Shown in pieces: positions 60,611-64,000 of a stretch of 64,000 bases of DNA. Each line of letters begins with the position of its first letter. The stretch's first letter is position 1. The notes beneath the pieces were generated by a model that saw only the letters and a program-made list of their open reading frames with translations, was not told the DNA's origin and ran no database searches. The position numbers were made by a program, and so were the translations under genes. The DNA is from Catenuloplanes niger (GTDB lineage: Bacteria; Actinomycetota; Actinomycetes; Mycobacteriales; Micromonosporaceae): positions 682,001 through 746,000 of the forward strand of contig NZ_JAVDYC010000001.1 of NCBI RefSeq assembly GCF_031458255.1, given 5' to 3'.

Positions 60611-60624
60611 GCATCGGCCGATGC
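60611..60624. promoter_or_regulatory. Perfect 14-bp palindrome upstream of the lasso precursor
   Basis: GCATCGGCCGATGC lies 46 nt before the precursor ATG in a 277-nt intergenic region (60394-60670) that is clearly richer in A+T than the genes around it (for example aattaaaaat just upstream). Candidate operator for the lasso operon; otherwise I see no gene there. Confidence 0.45.
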
Positions 60625-60670
60625 GATTAGTCATGTCCACGGCGAAAGCCGATTACCGAAAGGTGGCCTC

Positions 60671-60781
60671 ATGACCTCCTACGAGAAGCCCACGCTGACC
60701 CCGCAGGGCGACTTCCGCACCGAGACCGGCATCGGGAACAAGGGCCCGAAGGACCTGCTGGGCGGCAAGCAGCTCCTCTGA
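60671..60781 (+). CDS. Lasso peptide precursor (lagmysin-like)
   Basis: 36 residues, RBS GAAAGGTGG. The leader (1-20) has the YxxP recognition motif (YEKP, 4-7), Leu9, GDF (13-15) and Thr19 at position -2, as in lasso leaders. The predicted core (21-36) is IGNKGPKDLLGGKQLL: Ile1 would be joined to the side chain of Asp8 in an 8-residue ring, with the tail LLGGKQLL threaded. The D-L-L-G-G-x-x-L-L pattern and 16-residue length match lagmysin (LAGQGSPDLLGGHSLL as I remember it), but most ring residues differ. Followed by cyclase, RRE, peptidase and exporter genes, so the call is firm; ring size is inferred. Confidence 0.92.
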   Translation: MTSYEKPTLTPQGDFRTETGIGNKGPKDLLGGKQLL

Positions 60782-60793
60782 TCACGGTGCACA

Positions 60794-60822
60794 CCGGGCG
60801 GCGGCAGCACGCCGCCGCCCGG
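60794..60822 (+). terminator. Hairpin between lasso precursor and cyclase genes
   Basis: Perfect 12-bp stem CCGGGCGGCGGC / GCCGCCGCCCGG with loop AGCAC, 12 nt after the precursor stop and 25 nt before the cyclase start. A leaky terminator here would make precursor mRNA exceed enzyme mRNA. Confidence 0.75.
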
Positions 60823-60847
60823 CCCCTGCGGAGGAAGGACCAGCGCC

Positions 60848-62692
60848 ATGACCCGCCCCTCACACCTCGCCGGACTGTCCGACTGGTTCCTCGTGCTCCC
60901 GGACGACCCGGCCGCCACCGCCGCCGCCGAGCGGTTGCGGCCGTTCGCCGGCCGGGCCGTCGGACATCCCGGTGGGCGGCCCTGGCTGCTCGGACGGTGG
61001 ACCGTCGAGCGGCTCACCGTCGGCACGGCCGGTGACGTCACCGTCGCGGTCTCCGGCACCCACGTCGTCCCGGTCGAGGCCGCGCGCGAGGCCGCCGAGC
61101 GCGTCCGGTCGGCCGGGCGGGTCGACGGCGCGGTGCTCGACGCCCCGGGCAGCTATCACGTGGTCGTGCGGACCCCGTCCGGGACGTACGTCCGCGGCGG
61201 CGCCACCGAGGTGCGTCGCGCGTTCGTGACCCGCACCGGCCCGGCACCGCTCGCCGCGGACCGCGCCGACGTGCTCGCCGCGGTCCACGACGCCGGTCTC
61301 GACCCCACCCGGCTGGCCCTGCACCTGCTCGACCCGCAGACACTCCATCCGCTGGCCGGGACGCCGGTCTGGGCCGGGATCGACGCGGTCCCGGCCGGAT
61401 CATGGGCGCGGATCGACGCCACCGGCCGCGTCGCGTTCCGGCCCTGGTGGCGCCCGCCGGAGCCGGTCACCCCGATGGCGGAGGCCGCGGCCGGGCTGCG
61501 CGACGCGCTGACCGACGCGGTGCGGGTACGGACCGCCGGGCGCCCGCTGGTCACCACCGACCTGGGCGGCCTCGACTCGACCGCGGTGTGCAGCGTCGCC
61601 GCCACCCGCGGCGGGACCACGGTCGCGGCGTACACGGTGGACGTGCACGACCCGCTCGGCGACGACGTGCGGTGGGCCGCGCACACCGTCGCGGCGCTCG
61701 GGATCGAACATCACCTGGTGCCCGCCGAGCGCATGCCGATGACCTACGACGGGCTCACCGGCCCGGGCGAGAGCTGGGACGAGCCGTGCCTGACCACGGT
61801 GGACCGCAACCGCTGGAAGACGCTCATGCGGATGGCCGTGGACCGCGGCTCCACGCTGCACCTGACCGGGATCGGCGGCGACGAACTGCTCTACGGCTCC
61901 GTCGCCCACCTGCACACGCTGCTGCGCCGGCGGCCACGGCCGGCCTGGCGCGCGCTGCGCGGCTTCGAGGCGAAGTACCGCTGGTCCCGCGGCGAGACGC
62001 TGCGTCAGCTGGCGGACCGGCGGCCGTACCGGGCGTGGCTGGCCCGGGCCGGGGACGAGCTGACCGCGCCACCGCCCTCGCTGCGTGAGCCGCTGCTCGA
62101 CTGGGGCAGCCCGCCGCGGCTGCCGCCGTGGACCACGCCGGATACGGTCGCGGCCGTCCGGGCACTGCTGCACGCGACGGCCGCGCACGCGGAGCCGCTC
62201 GCGCCGTCCCGGGGCCGGCACCGGGAGCTGGAGGCGATCCGGTCGCTGTCCCGCACCACCCGGCAACTGCGCCAGATGGCCGCGCCGCTGGGCCTGGACT
62301 ACGCGGCACCGTACTACGACGACCGGGTGGTCGAGGCCGCGCTGCGCACCGATCCGGCGGACCGGATCACGCCCTGGCGGTACAAGCCGCTGATCGTCGA
62401 GGCGATGCGCGGCGTGGTCCCGGAGGCCAGCCGCGAACGCGCCACCAAGGCGAACGCGATGGTGGAGGAGGAGAACGGCCTGCGCCGGCACCGCGCCGAC
62501 CTGCTGACGCTCTGCGACTACTCCCGGCTGGCCCGGCTCGGGCTGATCGACGCGGTCGCGTTCCGGGCGGCGTGTGCCCGGCCACCCGCCAGTGACCTGC
62601 AGATCGGCGTGCTGCACCAGACCCTCGCCTGCGAGGTCTGGCTGCGCGCGCTGGAGGAGACCACCGTTCCCGCCGGAGGAGGACCGAGATGA
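60848..62692 (+). CDS. Lasso peptide macrolactam synthetase (asparagine-synthase-like cyclase)
   Basis: 614 residues from ATG 60848 with GGAGGAAGG upstream. The N-terminal part (about 1-170) corresponds to the glutaminase-like domain without its nucleophile. The C-terminal ATP-pyrophosphatase domain has the PP-loop LGGLDSTAV (240-247; usual Ser replaced by Leu), TGIGGDELLYGS and DYAAPYYDDRVVEAAL, as in lasso cyclases. It adenylates the Asp8 side chain and closes the ring. Its stop overlaps the next ATG by 4 nt. Confidence 0.93.
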   Translation: MTRPSHLAGLSDWFLVLPDDPAATAAAERLRPFAGRAVGHPGGRPWLLGRWTVERLTVGTAGDVTVAVSGTHVVPVEAAREAAERVRSAGRVDGAVLDAPGSYHVVVRTPSGTYVRGGATEVRRAFVTRTGPAPLAADRADVLAAVHDAGLDPTRLALHLLDPQTLHPLAGTPVWAGIDAVPAGSWARIDATGRVAFRPWWRPPEPVTPMAEAAAGLRDALTDAVRVRTAGRPLVTTDLGGLDSTAVCSVAATRGGTTVAAYTVDVHDPLGDDVRWAAHTVAALGIEHHLVPAERMPMTYDGLTGPGESWDEPCLTTVDRNRWKTLMRMAVDRGSTLHLTGIGGDELLYGSVAHLHTLLRRRPRPAWRALRGFEAKYRWSRGETLRQLADRRPYRAWLARAGDELTAPPPSLREPLLDWGSPPRLPPWTTPDTVAAVRALLHATAAHAEPLAPSRGRHRELEAIRSLSRTTRQLRQMAAPLGLDYAAPYYDDRVVEAALRTDPADRITPWRYKPLIVEAMRGVVPEASRERATKANAMVEEENGLRRHRADLLTLCDYSRLARLGLIDAVAFRAACARPPASDLQIGVLHQTLACEVWLRALEETTVPAGGGPR

Positions 62693-62946
62693 CCACCATG
62701 TTGCGCAACGGCATCCTGATGACCGAGACCGAGTACGGCGTCGTGCTGCTGGACGAGCACACCGGCGCCTACTACACACTCAACCCGACGGCCGCGCTCG
62801 TGGTGCGCACGCTGGACTCCGGCGGCGACGACGAGGCCGCCGCCGCGGCGCTGGTCGCCCAGTTCGGCGCGGACCCGGGGACCGCGGGCACGGACGTGGC
62901 CGAGCTGGTCGGTTCGCTGCGCACGGCGGGGCTGCTGCGCCGATGA
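62689..62946 (+). CDS. PqqD-like RiPP recognition element
   Basis: 85 residues, start overlaps the cyclase stop (ATGA). Winged-helix RRE pattern: GVVLLDEHTGAYYTLNPTAA, LVVRTLDSGGDDEAAAAALV, then VAELVGSLRTAGLL. In actinobacterial lasso systems this separate protein binds the YxxP leader motif and delivers the precursor to the peptidase and cyclase. Its stop overlaps the next start. Confidence 0.93.
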   Translation: MTTMLRNGILMTETEYGVVLLDEHTGAYYTLNPTAALVVRTLDSGGDDEAAAAALVAQFGADPGTAGTDVAELVGSLRTAGLLRR

Positions 62947-63359
62947 GCATGCCGGAGACCATCCCGTACAACCCGGCGTCGTTGCCCTTCACCACCCGAT
63001 GGGCCGCGCGCGTCGCCGTGACGGCGGCCCGGTTGCTGGCCCGCCGCCGCCCGGACCGGGTCCGGCGGGTGATGGGCGTGCTGCACCGCGGCACCCGCCC
63101 GGCCGGCGCCGCCCAGGCACTGGCCGCGTACCGGGCGGTGACCGCGGCGAGCCTGTACTGCGCGGGACGGGAGGGCTGCCTGCCCCGGTCGATCGCGGTC
63201 GCGCTGCTCTGCCGCGCGCGCGGCAGCTGGCCGACCTGGTGCGTGGGTGTGCGGCGGCTGCCGCCGTTCGCCGCGCACGCCTGGGTGCAGGTGGACGGCG
63301 AGCCGGTCGGCGAGGAGTTCCCCGCCGACTACTTCCGGCTGTTCTACTCGGTCGGATGA
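62943..63359 (+). CDS. Lasso leader peptidase (transglutaminase-like)
   Basis: 138 residues, start overlaps the RRE gene (ATGA). The catalytic Cys-His-Asp arrangement is visible: REGCLPRSIAVALLCR (Cys) and HAWVQVDGEPVGE (His and Asp), matching the transglutaminase-like lasso protease family without its fused RRE. It removes the leader after residue 20. The ABC exporter gene begins 6 nt downstream. Confidence 0.93.
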   Translation: MSMPETIPYNPASLPFTTRWAARVAVTAARLLARRRPDRVRRVMGVLHRGTRPAGAAQALAAYRAVTAASLYCAGREGCLPRSIAVALLCRARGSWPTWCVGVRRLPPFAAHAWVQVDGEPVGEEFPADYFRLFYSVG

Positions 63360-63365
63360 CGCCGG

Positions 63366-64000
63366 ATGCGTGCCGACCTGGCTCGCTGGCGCGACGTACG
63401 GCGGCTGACCGTGGGACACCGGCGCGCGATCGCGGTCGCGGCCACACTCAGCCTGGCCGGTTCCGCGCTGGCCCTGGCGCAGCCGATCCTGGCGCGCGAC
63501 GCGGTCGACACGGCCGCGGCCGGTACCGTGCCGTGGCCGGTGCTCGGCGCGCTGGTGCTGCTGTTCACGGCGCAGGCCGGCACGATGGCGCTCGCCCGTT
63601 ACGTGCAGGCGCGCACCGGCGAGACCATGATGCTGCGGCTGCGCCGCGCCCTGATCGACCACCTGCTGCGGGTCCGGATCCGGGACCTGGACCGGCACCG
63701 GGTCGGTGACCTGATCGCCCGCGCCGGCGGCGACACGGCCGTGGTGCGCACGCTCATCGCGCAGAGCCTCGGCTCCGGCATCGCCGGCGTCGCGGGCCTG
63801 GCCGGGACCGTGGCGCTGCTGGCCTGGCTGGATCCGTGGCTGCTGATCGCGGTCAGCGTGATGTTCGCGATCGCGGTGGCGGCGCTGCTGGCGATCGTGC
63901 GGCGGCTGCGGACGGCCTCGCGTGGCGCGCAGGAGGCGGAGGGAGCGCTGGTCGCGGACCTGGAGCGGGCGCTCGGCGCGATCCGCACGGTCCGCGCCGG
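63366..64000 (+). CDS. ABC transporter, lasso exporter (C-terminal part outside the window)
   Basis: About 211 residues are visible from ATG 63366. An N-terminal transmembrane domain of the ABC exporter type is seen: AIAVAATLSLAGSALALAQP, VPWPVLGALVLLFTAQAGTM, LRRALIDHLLRVRIRDLDRH, RVGDLIARAGGDTAVVRTLI (coupling helices) and WLDPWLLIAVSVMFAIAVAA. The nucleotide-binding domain is beyond the right edge. By position it should export the mature lasso peptide and give self-immunity. The ATG at 63356 belongs to another frame. Confidence 0.88.
   Translation, partial: MRADLARWRDVRRLTVGHRRAIAVAATLSLAGSALALAQPILARDAVDTAAAGTVPWPVLGALVLLFTAQAGTMALARYVQARTGETMMLRLRRALIDHLLRVRIRDLDRHRVGDLIARAGGDTAVVRTLIAQSLGSGIAGVAGLAGTVALLAWLDPWLLIAVSVMFAIAVAALLAIVRRLRTASRGAQEAEGALVADLERALGAIRTVRA

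Follow-up and report, generated by a model that had tools for sequence, protein, structure and literature searches.

Organisation of the operon

The window, the whole 64,000-nucleotide stretch of DNA analysed here, carries on its + strand a lasso peptide operon (60671-63998) in the order A-C-B1-B2-D, whose exporter reading frame leaves the window. Its features are as follows.

60611..60624, no strand assigned: GCATCGGCCGATGC, a perfect palindrome of 14 bp lying upstream of the precursor gene; a terminator scan also lists this site on the - strand
60671..60781, + strand: precursor gene (A), 36 aa, with leader MTSYEKPTLTPQGDFRTETG and predicted core IGNKGPKDLLGGKQLL
60731..60778, + strand: predicted core, 16 codons, with a predicted Ile1-Asp8 ring, from homology with lagmysin (LAGQGSPDLLGGHSLL) in the same alignment register
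60794..60822, + strand: hairpin with a perfect 12-bp stem and a 5-nt loop, between the precursor stop and the cyclase RBS; a T run is absent after the stem
60848..62692, + strand: macrolactam cyclase (C), 614 aa, Asn-synthetase-like, with the loop DLGGLDS
62689..62946, + strand: RRE, a PqqD-like leader-binding protein (B1), 85 aa
62943..63359, + strand: leader peptidase (B2), 138 aa, transglutaminase-like
63366..64000, + strand: ABC exporter (D), first 211 codons

The exporter gene is complete just beyond the window (577 aa; end at G000:C1:747099, L002:5366-7099), and all five frames of the operon are open. The cyclase and RRE genes overlap by 4 bp, as do the RRE and peptidase genes, and 6 bp separate the peptidase from the exporter. 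An earlier note on this DNA had placed a precursor, cyclase, RRE, peptidase and exporter in one coupled operon; gene calls and family matches bear out the operon, but because 66 bp and the hairpin within them separate the precursor from the cyclase, 'coupled' is right only for the four genes from the cyclase onward.

Lasso precursors are defined by a YxxP...G...T-x leader and an Asp or Glu at core position 7-9. The window precursor has the leader motif and an Asp at core position 8, and the cyclase, RRE and transglutaminase-like peptidase genes are adjacent. The precursor matches DUF5972 (8.3e-9) and reaches 19.9 bits against the NCBIfam model lasso_leader_L3 (cut-off 19); the open-access papers searched make no mention of DUF5972/PF19397. 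The cyclase matches Asn_synthase (1.1e-38); the closest cyclase model in NCBIfam has a cut-off of 300 bits, of which the window cyclase reaches 256. The usual cyclase motif is SGGxDS, from which DLGG(L/V)DS departs, a form common to 20 of 20 family members including lagmysin's own cluster. The RRE matches lasso_PqqD_Strm (2.5e-28) and, among solved structures, TfuB1 (6jx3, E 8e-11) and weakly TbiB1 (5v1u, E 0.0074), while the exporter matches ABC_membrane and ABC_tran. The peptidase, the only B2-type peptidase found in the 9.74 Mb genome, matches lasso_biosyn_B2 (2.4e-36); no PDB relative was found by sequence at E 0.01. Its Cys in GC(L/V)(P/A)RS and His in AHAW are conserved in 20/20 aligned proteins. 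The acid at His+12 is a yardstick for B2 peptidases, and an altered catalytic acid (Glu at His+12) was considered and dropped because several other B2 proteins have Gly or Pro there, in a comparison of 16 loci in which the search pattern was misplaced in some, the window's peptidase included. Judged from its sequence, the locus is very probably a complete class II lasso peptide operon of the lagmysin family with a predicted product.

The operon is flanked by convergent HxlR and RidA genes, which adjoin in one sister species. The palindrome upstream of the precursor is invariant across the three aligned operon-carrying genomes of the genus and is possibly an operator or a 5'UTR element. Position 60611, where the earlier note began its description, is its first base.

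Predicted core and mass

Cleavage of the leader after Thr-Gly would release IGNKGPKDLLGGKQLL, which is predicted to close an Ile1-Asp8 ring. Like the rest of the lagmysin family, the core has 16 residues, Asp8 and DLLGGxxLL. Thr-Gly directly precedes the core in all 25 aligned precursors, lagmysin included, most of which were collected by patterns demanding TG (one pattern demanded only T). The cyclised mass of about 1631.97 Da ([M+H]+ about 1632.98) calculated by hand in the earlier note agrees with the recomputed values of 1631.9722 Da and 1632.9795. By a simple count the core has a net charge of about +2 (Lys4, Lys7, Lys13) versus -1 for lagmysin. Apart from lagmysin's own, the core strings tried are absent from the open-access papers searched, which is as far as the description of the core as new holds, since the same core is encoded in a second species of the genus and near-identical cores in others. 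The lagmysin family is already known, and the peptide predicted from the window looks new to it.

The hairpin after the precursor gene

The gap between precursor and cyclase was compared with shuffles that keep dinucleotides, a hairpin being called exceptional if at most 1 of 100 shuffles is as good. It is exceptional in 24 of the 28 lagmysin-type clusters with a testable gap and unexceptional in four (L021, L059, L064 and L069, the same-family relative G320 included). Among other cluster types with a gap of at least 40 nt it is exceptional in 1/10 (2/10 at 5/100); the gaps of 11 other clusters were too short for the comparison. Folding energy is mildly low over the 100 nt after the window precursor (z -1.9) and clearly so over the 70-nt gap (z -3.6). 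No intrinsic terminator is listed on the + strand of L002 1-8000, and the two Rfam matches over L002 2300-3000, at 16.8 and 14.4 bits, fall far short of the respective gathering scores of 41 and 70. An origin as a dispersed repeat is unsupported, the stem pattern occurring at three places in the 9.74 Mb genome versus two for a reversed control pattern. The hairpin is a practical concern for heterologous expression; the strategy that a review table gives for astexin-1 is 'RBS substitution/removal of the hairpin' (PMC7549694).

Alternative explanations

Could the hairpin be a mere by-product of G+C-rich DNA? The DNA is indeed G+C-rich, the stem pattern and its reversed control are found at similar numbers of places, and 150-bp stretches before the precursor pass in 2/20 cases at 1/100 and 4/20 at 5/100. 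However, with dinucleotides preserved in the shuffles, 17 of 20 precursor-cyclase gaps pass at 1/100, whereas stretches within the cyclase gene pass in 0/20 and 0/20 (5/100 adds one in-gene stretch and nothing else) and the other gaps in 0/6 (cyclase-RRE), 0/11 (RRE-peptidase) and 1/10 (peptidase-exporter), which makes this explanation very unlikely. More improbable still is that the operon is as described and yields a different product, either through a cut one residue earlier, giving a Gly start, a 9-membered ring and a mass of 1688.99 Da, or through C-terminal trimming after cyclisation. In favour of the earlier cut, the residue just before the predicted core is Gly, a common first residue of lasso peptides; against this, the lagmysin leader likewise ends in TG, its core is listed as starting after TG, and with a cut after TG the Asp falls at position 8 in 19/19 distinct cores of the clade.

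It is unlikely, if less so than either of these, that the operon is silent or decaying and that no peptide is made. G098, of the same genus, is without the operon at the same site and has 586 bp of other DNA instead. Operon remnants were sought in this gap and rejected, the one strong DNA match being the shared end by RidA and the others short and weak. With supports of 47 and 69 for the order of species in the flanking-gene tree of the genus, loss of the operon in G098 is no more than favoured. Standing against decay in the window are the five open frames, the identical core in G096 and synonymous changes of 0/34 and 1/32 in the precursor gene versus 15.8% and 21.0% in the enzymes and exporter. 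No precursor match was found on named plasmids at E 1.

Proposed mechanism and function

The preferred reading, a working operon with a cut after Thr-Gly, would proceed as follows. Leader binding through YxxP is a general trait of lasso RREs, and the RRE encoded here would bind this motif. B2 would cut after Thr-Gly, and C would activate Asp8 with ATP and join it to Ile1 by an amide bond, so that the ring encircles the tail. Export of the peptide, of 1631.97 Da and about +2 net charge, would fall to D. The most likely role of the hairpin past the precursor gene is to protect or terminate a portion of the transcript, which would let precursor be made in excess of the enzymes.

Residues 1-4 of the core are variable beside a nearly constant half, G5-P6-K7-D8-L/V-L-G-G-K-Q-L-L, which suggests that it is the constant half that is read, by either the enzymes or the target. 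A peptide that is nearly fixed except at four highly variable ring residues is what would be expected if residues 1-4 tune specificity and the remainder serves making or binding. Antagonism against related actinomycetes is tentatively predicted as the use of the peptide, at somewhat less than an even chance, with signalling ranked next. The locus provides an exact mass and a ready five-gene operon for a lagmysin relative from a genus differing from that of the lagmysin-core genomes found.

Comparison with lagmysin and other lasso peptides

Lagmysin is listed as a class II lasso peptide with the core LAGQGSPDLLGGHSLL (PMC12427821), which agrees with the DLLGGxxLL half given in the earlier note. 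Its precursor and that of the window have the leader motif in common, as well as a core of 16 residues that follows TG and contains Asp8 and DLLGGxxLL. The cores agree at 8/16 positions and differ at the other eight (1-4, 6, 7, 13, 14), so the window core is not lagmysin itself. Clusters with the lagmysin-type GSPD core have precursor, cyclase, RRE and peptidase ordered as in the window (L060, L061, L067); these three, and L030, which counts for the hairpin only, have a hairpin downstream of the precursor. A same-strand cyclase follows 49/49 precursors matching the search pattern; the A-C-B1-B2 order recurs in 20/20 longer lagmysin-type loci and an exporter homologue comes next in 18/20, though many of the loci compared are close kin and hence not independent.

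In the cyclase tree the window falls in a 26-row clade (support 100/99) together with four lagmysin-core (GSPD) rows. The commonest core form is the Lys-rich GPKD(L/V)LGGKQLL, with Pro6 in 15 and Lys13 in 16 of the 19 distinct cores. Because the neutral lagmysin branch is nested within the tree, lagmysin looks derived within the family. The window core does have three Lys, but its description as a basic variant of lagmysin is doubtful in direction, since the cores of the clade as a rule contain two to four Lys/Arg and it is the nested lagmysin that departs from this. A wider, speculative proposal, which may well not hold, is that the family has a conserved RNA element, a strong hairpin 3' of the precursor gene whose stems change with pairing kept, beside unusually few silent precursor changes, and that the precursor message is separately stabilised and sets the precursor:enzyme ratio; the Lys-rich GPKD...GGKQLL would be ancestral, and lagmysin would have branched off from it with its charge reversed and a different target.

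The Streptomyces GPKD(L/V)LGGKQLL cores (L012-L015 and others) have a ring end GPKD and a tail LGGKQ(L)L that are identical or nearly so to those of the window, whereas their residues 1-4 differ (IKDT, ATGS or LAGS, for example), their genes are mostly further apart and their cyclases are about 50-56% identical. The LLxxxGxDRLILSKN-like cores, which we take to be Citrulassin-type, share the DUF5972 match and the Thr-Gly junction with the window precursor. Their ring and tail are unlike the window's, their cyclases form a separate clade, and their precursor-cyclase gap is 24-28 nt in 7/7 loci, too short for the hairpin comparison.

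Organisation of the operon

The lasso peptide operon of Catenuloplanes niger is real, complete and ordinary, and through it the lagmysin family gains a new member in the form of a predicted peptide. A five-gene lasso operon had already been claimed in the earlier note, and this is borne out by five ORFs, all on the + strand and all identified by profile searches:

60671-60781, + strand, precursor, 36-aa ORF; DUF5972 above cut-off and lasso_leader_L3 at 19.9 bits vs 19 (profile searches)
60848-62692, + strand, cyclase, 614 aa; Asn_synthase (profile search)
+ strand, RRE, 85 aa; lasso PqqD-type (profile search)
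+ strand, B2 peptidase, 138 aa; lasso B2 (profile search)
+ strand, ABC exporter, first 211 codons inside the window; 577 aa in the surrounding genome stretch (L002), ending at G000:C1:747099

Among solved RREs, that of the window matches TfuB1 and, weakly, TbiB1. At its 3' end the exporter gene meets a RidA-type gene running in the opposite direction, behind which an epimerase-type gene follows, so no tailoring gene lies directly downstream of the operon. The ATP-loop motif of the cyclase is usually SGGxDS; it is DLGG(L/V)DS in 20/20 family cyclases and DLGGLDS in the window. The Pfam entry DUF5972 (PF19397, 'unknown function') matches all 25 lasso precursors of our alignment, including lagmysin and citrulassin-type precursors, which suggests that it is a family of lasso precursors.

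Core peptide and its relatives

Thr-Gly directly precedes the core in 25/25 aligned precursors, most of which were collected with a pattern that required TG in two collections and T only in a third. Lagmysin is listed in a review as a class II peptide with the core LAGQGSPDLLGGHSLL (PMC12427821), which is encoded exactly, after TG, by two genomes (G1118 and G1120). Because Thr-Gly precedes the aligned cores and the lagmysin genomes encode the listed core after TG, the window core is predicted to be IGNKGPKDLLGGKQLL, with a ring from Ile1 to Asp8 and an 8-residue tail. The recomputed masses of this predicted product are 1649.983 (linear), 1631.972 (cyclised) and 1632.980 ([M+H]+), the last two in agreement with the earlier hand calculation. 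The window core is identical to lagmysin at 8 of 16 positions, namely G5, D8, L9, L10, G11, G12, L15 and L16.

A precursor search of 354 family genomes returned five matches at E <= 0.01. One has a core of citrulassin type, and the remaining four belong to the window itself, two members of the genus, G096 (core identical to that of the window) and G095 (IGNRGPKDLLGGKQLL), and the same-family relative G320 (IGAHGPKDLLGGKQLL). In one same-class genus, probably Streptomyces, 58/392 genomes match the precursor at 1e-4, and the best 30 of these 58 matches include 16 of lagmysin type from 16 genomes. Matches number 12/394 in the class sample and 5/396 in the phylum sample, the window counted. Apart from the window, the lagmysin-type loci in these samples are L046 and L047, with L008 and L009 as looser cases. 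The genome_contigs scan, which used two peptide patterns only, (P/K)QGDFR(T/A)E and PKDLLGGK, and from which genomes near the window's own may be absent, gave four loci, all from Streptomyces, with 61-64% precursor identity and GPKDLLGGKQ(L/A)L. In the open-access papers searched, none of the core and tail strings tried was found except lagmysin's own. A sister group of precursors (L010, L035, L036, L037 and L039) carries LGxxxGPE(R/K) at the ring end and would close the ring through Glu.

Lagmysin as the exception

In a cyclase tree of 48 rows, drawn with a midpoint root, 26 rows form a single clade (support 100/99) whose first split separates the window clade of three genus members and G320 (100/99) from 22 rows (100/99). 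Four of these 22 rows have GSPD cores at residues 5-8, two of them the exact lagmysin core; their sister group (96/89) comprises the other 18, whose cores are of GPKD or a related type. Because the next rows outside the clade, L068 and L069 (the latter flagged as a long branch), both carry GP(K/R)D, Pro6-Lys/Arg7 would by parsimony be old and Ser6-Pro7 and His13-Ser14 of lagmysin newer. Mixed states in two of the 18 GPKD-side rows, L070 (TAKD, His13) and L071 (SAPD), count against this simple story.

The 19 distinct cores of the clade are nearly fixed at Asp8, Leu10 and Gly11 (19/19 each), Gly12 (18/19) and Gly5 (17/19), followed by Lys13 (16/19), Pro6 and Lys7 (15/19 each), while positions 1-4 are the most variable. 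By a simple count excluding His, the cyclised charge is +1 or +2 in 17/19 and -1 in the two GSPD cores. The peptide had been described as a basic variant of lagmysin; its core is basic, but the direction of variation is doubtful, since 17/19 clade cores are positive and lagmysin is a nested exception. Given the cyclase tree and these charges, the window core is better put as a predicted typical member of the family, of which lagmysin would be the neutral exception.

Genomic site

The operon is flanked by HxlR and RidA genes and occupies the same site in G095 and G096. It is absent from a further genus member, G097, where the aligned HxlR and RidA coding ends face each other 5 bp apart. In another, G098, the site holds 586 bp of different sequence with a 51-nt inverted repeat of 92% complementarity (L078 3405-3455 and 3827-3877), and this stretch may be a small mobile element. 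In G320 neither neighbour was found in the 19.5 kb analysed. The likeliest history, on a weak flanking-gene tree, is gain before the split of the window genome, G095, G096 and G098, followed by loss in G098.

Silent sites of the precursor gene

Synonymous changes in the precursor number 0/34 against G096 and 1/32 against G095, compared with 15.8% and 21.0% in the enzymes and exporter. Equally low values occur in 0/1111 and 2/1031 sliding windows of the same size, and the binomial tails are 0.003 and 0.005, respectively. This near-absence of silent change, in a comparison of only three close genomes, suggests that the RNA or codons of the precursor gene may be under constraint. Upstream of the gene lies a perfect 14-bp palindrome (60611-60624), invariant in three aligned genus carriers, which is a possible operator.

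A hairpin between precursor and cyclase

60794-60822, hairpin with 12 uninterrupted base pairs and a loop of 5 nt, within the 66-bp precursor-cyclase gap and ahead of the cyclase GGAGG

The genes had been described as one coupled operon, which does not hold for this junction, where 66 bp with a hairpin part the precursor from the cyclase. Folding of 60779-60848 gives a z of -3.6, with 0/200 shuffles equally stable; for the 100 nt after the precursor stop z is just -1.9, and an equally long perfect stem occurs in 0/60 shuffles.

The gaps of 49 loci were surveyed (28 lagmysin-type, 10 others of at least 40 nt and 11 others too short), a stem being exceptional if equalled in at most 1/100 dinucleotide shuffles, or 5/100 at a looser level. 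Such stems are found in 24/28 lagmysin-type gaps, the exceptions being L021, L059, L064 and L069, vs 1/10 others (2/10 at 5/100), counts which are not independent events as many loci are close kin. In a control set of 20 longer loci, the precursor-cyclase gap passes in 17/20 at both levels. At 1/100 and 5/100, respectively, two stretches within the cyclase pass in 0/20 and 0/20 and in 0/20 and 1/20, cyclase-RRE gaps in 0/6 and 0/6, RRE-peptidase gaps in 0/11 and 0/11, peptidase-exporter gaps in 1/10 and 1/10, and the 150 bp upstream of the precursor in 2/20 and 4/20. Some stems are near-identical GGG(T/C)GGCGGC forms, and at the other extreme those of L012, L063, L066 and L070 are unrelated in sequence.

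No T run follows the window hairpin, which rules out a textbook terminator; we infer a protective or partly terminating stem. The entry for astexin-1 in the table of a review reads 'RBS substitution/removal of the hairpin' (PMC7549694), and on the basis of this entry the principle of a lasso precursor gene with a 3' hairpin is not new but already known.
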